A DNA stretch of 47,652 nucleotides from Phycisphaerae bacterium (GTDB lineage Bacteria > Planctomycetota > Phycisphaerae > SM23-33), in assembly GCA_016929245.1 (NCBI GenBank), contig JAFGJE010000174.1, positions 1-47,652 of the forward strand, in the 5' to 3' direction. Shown here piece after piece: positions 14,435-15,557 of the stretch (position 1 is the first letter of the stretch; each line of letters starts with the position of its first letter). A model generated the notes under the pieces. The model worked only from the letters and a program-made list of their open reading frames with translations. It searched no databases and was not told the DNA's origin. A program made the translations under genes and the position numbers.

Positions 14435-14710
14435 TCAATCCTCTCGGATTTTGAATACAATAAGACAGTTCCCCTCAAACGTACAGAAGATATGCAGGTG
14501 TCGTACACGAATTTTCCAAAAAACCCTTTGTTTCCCCCGAAGCATTTTTACAAATCCCGCCCCGTGCTTGCGACACAATATATCCATCGCCGCCGTCGCG
14601 TCATCCTGACGGAGCAATTCCAGCGCCGCCTGAACGCGTCGCTGTTCCCGCCGCGACAATTGACGCAACTGCTCCCGCGCCGATTTCTTGATTCGTACTT
14701 CGCAGGCCAA
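14435..14710 (-). CDS. RelE/ParE-superfamily toxin (TTG start)
   Basis: VRIKKSAREQLRQLSRREQRRVQAALELL..VFWKIRVRHLHIFCTFEGNCLIVFKIRED; abuts antitoxin. Confidence 0.8.
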   Translation of the reverse strand: MACEVRIKKSAREQLRQLSRREQRRVQAALELLRQDDATAAMDILCRKHGAGFVKMLRGKQRVFWKIRVRHLHIFCTFEGNCLIVFKIRED

Positions 14711-14962
14711 TTACAGCCCCAGTTCCTGTTTCACCTCGTCCCAGGGAATCGTATCTTCAGATTCATCCCAGGCAGCCTCCGCTTCGGCAAGATCACGCTG
14801 ATCTTCGCGCAATTGCTCCAATGCTTCAATATCCTCGATCGGCACGATCGCCACCCTCTGGGAACCGTGCCGTTCCACGACGATGCGCTCGTGCTTGGTG
14901 CACACGTCGGTAAACAACTGCGATAATCGAGCGCGGGCGTTTGTGAAGGAAATCGTTGTCAT
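14711..14962 (-). CDS. Phd/YefM-family antitoxin
   Basis: MTTISFTNARARLSQLFTDVCTKHERIVVERHGSQRVAIVPIEDIEALEQL. Confidence 0.88.
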   Translation of the reverse strand: MTTISFTNARARLSQLFTDVCTKHERIVVERHGSQRVAIVPIEDIEALEQLREDQRDLAEAEAAWDESEDTIPWDEVKQELGL

Positions 14963-14976
14963 GTCATCCACCTTTC

Positions 14977-15044
14977 TGTACAGCGTTGTACATCAATGTA
15001 CAATATTGCACAATACTGTACATCTCTGTACATAGTATCGTACA
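14977..15044. promoter_or_regulatory. Phased TGTACA operator array (6 units at 10-bp pitch plus 1)
   Basis: TGTACA at 14977, 14987, 14997, 15017, 15027; TGCACA at 15007; CGTACA at 15039. Confidence 0.85.
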
Positions 15045-15172
15045 AAAAAGGCATGAAAGCAATAGTTTTTATAGGTTTCTGCGCATTTTCCAAAGTGTGT
15101 CCGGGCCTTCTTTGGAATTCCTTCGTGATGATTTATCCCAATTGCCGATATGTTGCTTGGGAGTATCCCGCG

Positions 15173-15201
15173 TTGTCAGATATTCCGAAGAACGGTACAA
15201 T
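15173..15201 (+). promoter_or_regulatory. Sigma70-like promoter TTGTCA-N17-TACAAT
   Basis: -35 at 15173-15178, -10 at 15196-15201, start codon at 15208. Confidence 0.6.
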
Positions 15202-15207
15202 ATCCTC

Positions 15208-15498
15208 ATGGTGAGTTTGAACGACATCCAGTCCCAGCGGGAACGCATTCTCGAAATCGCCCGGCGGCACGGCGCCAGCCACGTGCGCATCTTCGGGTCC
15301 GTCTCACGGGGACGTGCAACCCAAGCCAGCGACATCGACCTGCTGGTGACCATGGCCCCCGATCGTTCGCTGCTCGACCGAATCGCATTGATTCATGAAC
15401 TGGAAGATTTGCTGCGGAATCCCGTGGATGTGGTCAACGAACGCGCCCTGCATCCGGAAATCCGTGACGAGGTGTTGGCCGAGGCGGTGGAGTTATGA
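15208..15498 (+). CDS. MNT-type minimal nucleotidyltransferase (HEPN-MNT antitoxin)
   Basis: HVRIFGSVSRGRATQASDIDLLVTM (GSxxRG..SDIDLLV). Confidence 0.88.
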   Translation: MVSLNDIQSQRERILEIARRHGASHVRIFGSVSRGRATQASDIDLLVTMAPDRSLLDRIALIHELEDLLRNPVDVVNERALHPEIRDEVLAEAVEL

Positions 15499-15557
15499 GC
15501 CGCGATCAACTGTATCTGATCCATATACGCGACGCGATTCAGAATATTCTGACGTAA
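15495..15557 (+). pseudogene. Truncated HEPN-domain toxin (20 codons, then TAA)
   Basis: MSRDQLYLIHIRDAIQNILT* resembles HEPN (DUF86) N-termini; ATGA overlap with MNT. Confidence 0.65.

Follow-up and report, generated by a model that had tools for sequence, protein, structure and literature searches.

The window analysed here, that is, the whole stretch of 47,652 nucleotides from a Phycisphaerae bacterium (contig JAFGJE010000174.1), carries on its minus strand two adjoining genes of the toxin–antitoxin type, preceded by a regular array of short palindromes and, beyond it, by a divergent gene. A genome of the same genus, G296, possesses the orthologous locus (L126) and serves as the reference for conservation. 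The features are the following:

14435..14710, minus strand: RelE-fold toxin-like protein of 91 residues (predicted), its TTG start codon immediately following the stop of the antitoxin gene
14711..14962, minus strand: Phd/YefM antitoxin of 83 residues, with ATG at 14962 and a possible start at GTG 14971
14968..14975, minus strand: predicted ribosome-binding site of the antitoxin gene, AAAGGTGG, conserved in G296
14977..15032, no strand: putative operator array of six 6-bp palindromes, TGTACA (TGCACA at 15007), with an exact 10-bp pitch
15034..15062, minus strand: predicted promoter TTGCTT-N17-GATACT, with the -35 element at 15062-15057 and the -10 element at 15039-15034
15039..15044, no strand: seventh, off-pitch unit CGTACA, one 12-bp step after the sixth and abutting the -10 element
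15209-15540, plus strand: MntA-like nucleotidyltransferase gene (PF01909) and a short reading frame, absent at the orthologous locus of G296

Between the array and the antitoxin ATG lie 14 bp. The preliminary description had called this antitoxin Phd/YefM-like, an assignment that profile searches confirm: the protein belongs to PF02604 (E = 9.7e-14, 51.3 bits, for a curated cut-off of 29.8) and also scores above the cut-off for TIGR01552. It can be aligned gap-free with the N-terminal region of E. coli YefM (2a6q) and retains R10 and R31, the arginines needed for DNA binding in the E. coli protein (PMC4803016). With regard to the second gene product, direct sequence search gave no match in Pfam or the PDB, and a profile of two toxin sequences returned chance matches only, a situation resolved by profile–profile comparison and fold search. 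The profile of the toxin and its G296 orthologue matches RelE-type toxins adjoining homologous antitoxins with 97.3% probability, and a structural model of moderate confidence (pLDDT 65) has RelE proteins as its top Foldseek matches (best E = 1.5e-4). Profile and model thus assign to the protein the predicted RelE fold that defines the RelE/YoeB superfamily. A further criterion of the superfamily, the C-terminal motif (H/N/D)R-x-x-x-Y, present in almost all toxins beside homologous antitoxins, is missing from the window toxin and from that of G296, both of which end at about that point in the alignment. Furthermore, both harbour about 13 extra residues in the middle of the protein compared with their relatives.

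As for the divergent gene, the short frame that follows the PF01909 gene resembles the first part of a HEPN toxin, ending after about 20 residues. At two other loci (L145 and L181), the reading frame of an antitoxin relative continues into a nucleotidyltransferase domain, with a HEPN-like gene next to it; these may represent a possible Phd-MNT fusion.

Within the array, TGTACA begins at 14977, 14987, 14997, 15017 and 15027, and TGCACA at 15007; the 4-bp spacers, read on the plus strand, are gcgt, tcaa, atat, atac and tctc. Positions and spacers are exactly those given when six TGTACA/TGCACA hexamers at a 10-bp pitch were first described. Since all five spacers differ, the array is not a plain 10-bp tandem repeat. 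The window contains 11 copies of TGTACA for 2.3 expected, a number reached in 0 of 100 shuffles, and 5 TGTACA-N4-TGTACA pairs (up to 2 mismatches) for 0.26 expected. A search of the genome to which the window belongs found the six-unit array a single time.

The orthologous locus of G296 is bordered on one side, as in the window, by fructose-bisphosphate aldolase and methyltransferase genes, and on the other by a downstream gene common to the window locus. Its array reads TGTACA, TGTACA, TGTGCG, TGTACA, AGTGCA, TGTACA, that is, six units at a 10-bp pitch with no net indel. Between the window and G296, the one genome pair on which conservation of the six-unit array rests, 33 of 36 hexamer positions are identical, compared with 11 of 20 spacer positions (Fisher p = 0.002), and both arrays have a degenerate third unit (TGTGC), counted from the promoter. 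The antitoxin genes display a pN of 0.11 and a pS of 0.71, indicating saturated synonymous sites and a constrained protein. As judged from this comparison of sequences, the hexamers of the array are under constraint.

Two elements of the preliminary description fared less well in the same comparison. The seventh unit, CGTACA at 15039, is present after a 12-bp step as described, but it is not conserved in G296; it is rejected as an essential part of the array and would be optional or due to chance. An antitoxin promoter built from the repeat units themselves, TTGTGC-N17-TACAAC, had also been put forward. This sequence lacks conservation in G296 and is rejected, whereas TTGCTT-N17-GATACT corresponds to TTGCTT-N17-GATAAT at the same position, so that a promoter just upstream of the array is conserved in both species. 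With this promoter, transcription would be expected to start near the first unit, around 15027, and the array would fill the leader.

The association of the array with the antitoxin was followed in larger genome sets. It had been stated at the outset that homologues devoid of TGTACA motifs, together with an array segregating independently, would speak against an operator; a search of 299 class genomes, allowing up to 3 mismatches, found a four-unit array solely at this locus, in the window species and G296, an outcome in favour of the operator. Exact TGTACA-N4 triples were found in 87 stretches among 85,462 GTDB species genomes, and in 27 stretches in IMG/VR. Many of these loci have identical spacers, unlike the window array, and look like plain tandem repeats. 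When variable gaps between TGTACA hexamers were allowed in 286 genomes of the phylum, three genomes only were retrieved beyond the window, all with identical-spacer tandem repeats. Beside arrays with heterogeneous spacers, PF02604 stands well ahead of every other family, with 15 cases including the window, compared with 2 for the next family; a single PF02604 gene lies beside an identical-spacer array. Individual scans gave 15 PF02604 matches outside the window, of which 12 exceed the curated cut-off and three fall slightly below it. Judged by their record titles, the array-linked loci span Actinomycetota, Chloroflexota, Omnitrophota, Acidobacteriota, Pseudomonadota, a Gottesmanbacteria genome and others. 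At the level of sequence, TGTACA-N4 arrays at PF02604 genes represent repeated use of one architecture. Many TGTACA-N4 arrays elsewhere stand away from any Phd/YefM gene, which counts against reading the array as an operator.

Several individual arrays deserve mention. Three viral contigs (L100, L103 and L104) code for small Phd-like proteins, with no Pfam match, directly downstream of TGTACA-N4 arrays of three to five units. Another viral contig (L094:568-623) has six perfect units, their five spacers all different, within non-coding DNA rich in repeats, and no Phd gene was found near this array. In Absicoccus porci (L085:515-760), a MazE-like gene is preceded, at a distance of about 130 bp, by 25 exact TGTACA hexamers with TAGT or TTGT spacers and a 10-bp pitch. 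In Aeriscardovia aeriphila (L051:5844-5969), an ATPase gene and a small reading frame flank 13 partly degenerate units, whose pitch is exactly 10 bp and whose spacers mostly differ; there is no Phd gene. Finally, HTH_17-type genes lie beside arrays with differing spacers in two Bacteroidota (L019 and L037), perhaps an unrelated regulator with the same geometry.

The pitch of GTAC-containing operators was compared across lineages. Upstream of 107 PF02604 genes sampled from one phylum, where GTAC cores were counted if present, a spacing of 12 bp, mostly between two cores as in the canonical yefM operator, is the most frequent (17 adjacent pairs). In 55 upstream regions of the antitoxin's class relatives, the cores follow a 9-bp pitch (41 pairs), with further spacings of 18 and 27 bp. 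Two GTAC-type cores 10 bp apart were found in none of the 107 phylum and 55 class-relative regions, compared with six units at 10 bp in both the window and G296. No other self-complementary 4-mer upstream of PF02604 genes gave a peak comparable to that of GTAC. Of note, CTAG occurs at a 9-bp spacing (6 pairs) in the general PF02604 upstream regions, and this spaced palindrome could be the signature of a further operator type within PF02604. Paralogues of the 9-bp type exist in the window's own genome (L121 and L122) and in G296 (L153), so that, given L121 and L122, the 9- and 10-bp geometries coexist in one cell. From these sequences, we conclude that operator pitch is lineage-specific within PF02604, with 12 bp in general, 9 bp in the class relatives and 10 bp in the genus, which is new here. 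As regards the comparison of array length with that at homologous antitoxin genes, proposed beforehand, class relatives have two to four GTAC sites, over a sigma-70-like promoter of the TTGAC-N17-TACAAT type; PF02604-linked arrays in other phyla have three to five units and end no more than about 50 bp from the start codon; and the window and G296, with six, have the longest such arrays found.

Could the array act in the RNA rather than in the DNA, as self-complementary UGUACA hairpins in the antitoxin mRNA leader that control translation? The leader does fold better than shuffled sequences in both species (z of -2.8 and -4.7), although palindromic repeats tend to do so by construction. The two species differ in their predicted pairings (units 1-6/2-5/3-4 or similar in one, 1-4/2-3 in the other), the spacers have no complementarity shared between them, and an exact 10-bp pitch with PF02604 genes directly downstream in many phyla fits DNA sites and not an RNA fold. 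A leader structure is therefore disfavoured, as the pairing is not common to both species, and we consider it improbable. Even less probable is that the array belongs to the divergent nucleotidyltransferase gene or to another regulator recognising TGTACA sites. It does lie about 165 bp upstream of the gene at 15209, but a separate promoter-like site precedes that gene (TTGTCA-N17-TACAAT at 15173-15201), and a global regulator is hardly consistent with an array present once in the genome. Moreover, G296 has kept the array and lacks the nucleotidyltransferase gene, and an operator of this gene is rejected for that reason.

A recent, microsatellite-like tandem duplication without function is the least credible of these alternatives. 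Plain 10-bp TGTACA repeats do exist elsewhere with identical spacers, but the five spacers of the window array are all different, and the conservation of hexamers and not spacers between two species with saturated synonymous sites largely refutes this origin.

Among known systems, the closest are yefM-yoeB of E. coli and axe-txe of E. faecium. As described in two papers (PMC7730913 and PMC4803016), the operators of both systems have palindromes with TGTACA cores at two sites, 12 bp from centre to centre, in line with the two palindromes invoked for yefM-yoeB in the preliminary description. A 12-bp spacing also occurs in Streptomyces (PMC3303803), and altering it in E. coli YefM-YoeB disturbs cooperative binding (PMC4803016). 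The window locus shares with these systems the TGTACA-core palindromes at the promoter, in the region where the operon starts, a toxin of the RelE superfamily, and R10 and R31 in the antitoxin. It differs in having six sites at a 10-bp pitch in both species instead of two at 12 bp, the single 12-bp step not being conserved; as read from the sequence, this is a departure from the yefM geometry, not simply more of the same. The phd-doc system of phage P1, a case of conditional cooperativity, offers Phd-family dimers on adjacent palindromes and a toxin that bridges dimers as co-repressor (PMC4803016), but with two sites and the Doc toxin rather than six sites and a RelE-fold toxin. For the omega repressor of omega-epsilon-zeta, dimers have been proposed to polymerise along short operator repeats (PMC4803016); this is, however, a ribbon-helix-helix protein encoded by a separate regulator gene and acting on 7-bp repeats (heptads). 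The 9-bp operators of the class relatives are similar in their homologous antitoxin, RelE-type toxin and GTAC cores, and differ in pitch and in number of sites.

Because the array adjoins a PF02604 gene, has conserved hexamers, is linked to the antitoxin and consists of the YefM/Axe core TGTACA, we interpret it as the probable autoregulatory operator of the adjacent Phd/YefM-RelE toxin–antitoxin operon, with a probability of about 0.88. The expanded operator initially proposed thus holds as regards its linkage to the antitoxin, the constraint on its hexamers and the similar arrays at PF02604 genes in other phyla, but not as an extension of the yefM geometry, from which its pitch departs. Protein binding, cooperativity and an effect on transcription are inferred from YefM, Axe and Phd. 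By this analogy, one antitoxin dimer would bind each palindrome, giving six dimers one helical turn apart and on nearly one face of the DNA, as 10 bp correspond to about 343 degrees, with a drift of about 17 degrees per step. The stretch occupied by the dimers would run from just below the -10 element up to the ribosome-binding site, taking in the first transcribed bases as well as the leader, and the promoter would be blocked, with the toxin acting as co-repressor. With six sites instead of two, repression should depend more steeply on antitoxin and toxin amounts and on their ratio. A cooperative antitoxin/toxin filament on one DNA face, as envisaged in the preliminary description, is plausible, with the omega repressor on its heptads as a precedent. 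As the pitch differs from the 12 bp of E. coli and the 9 bp of the class relatives, it does not follow that neighbouring sites can be occupied at the same time, and the 10-bp pitch may work differently from the spacing in YefM-YoeB.

A broader reading would join these observations: pitch and site number could form a specificity code of Phd/YefM proteins that keeps GTAC-sharing paralogues apart by 10 versus 9 bp, the array of this genus could nucleate a side-by-side filament on one DNA face, and the toxin, having lost its nuclease motif, could be mainly a co-repressor. As a whole, this remains speculative and rather unlikely.

Described Phd/YefM operators have one or two sites in the papers cited here, longer arrays being possible in further literature, and the usual account of conditional cooperativity involves two sites. 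A natural array of six sites at an exact pitch, conserved between species, lends itself to testing how the steepness of autoregulation is set by site number and helical phase. With regard to the family, a common GTAC core occurs at spacings of 12, 9 or 10 bp, two of which (9 and 10 bp) are present in one genome; this would allow testing whether spacing alone provides insulation between related antitoxins.
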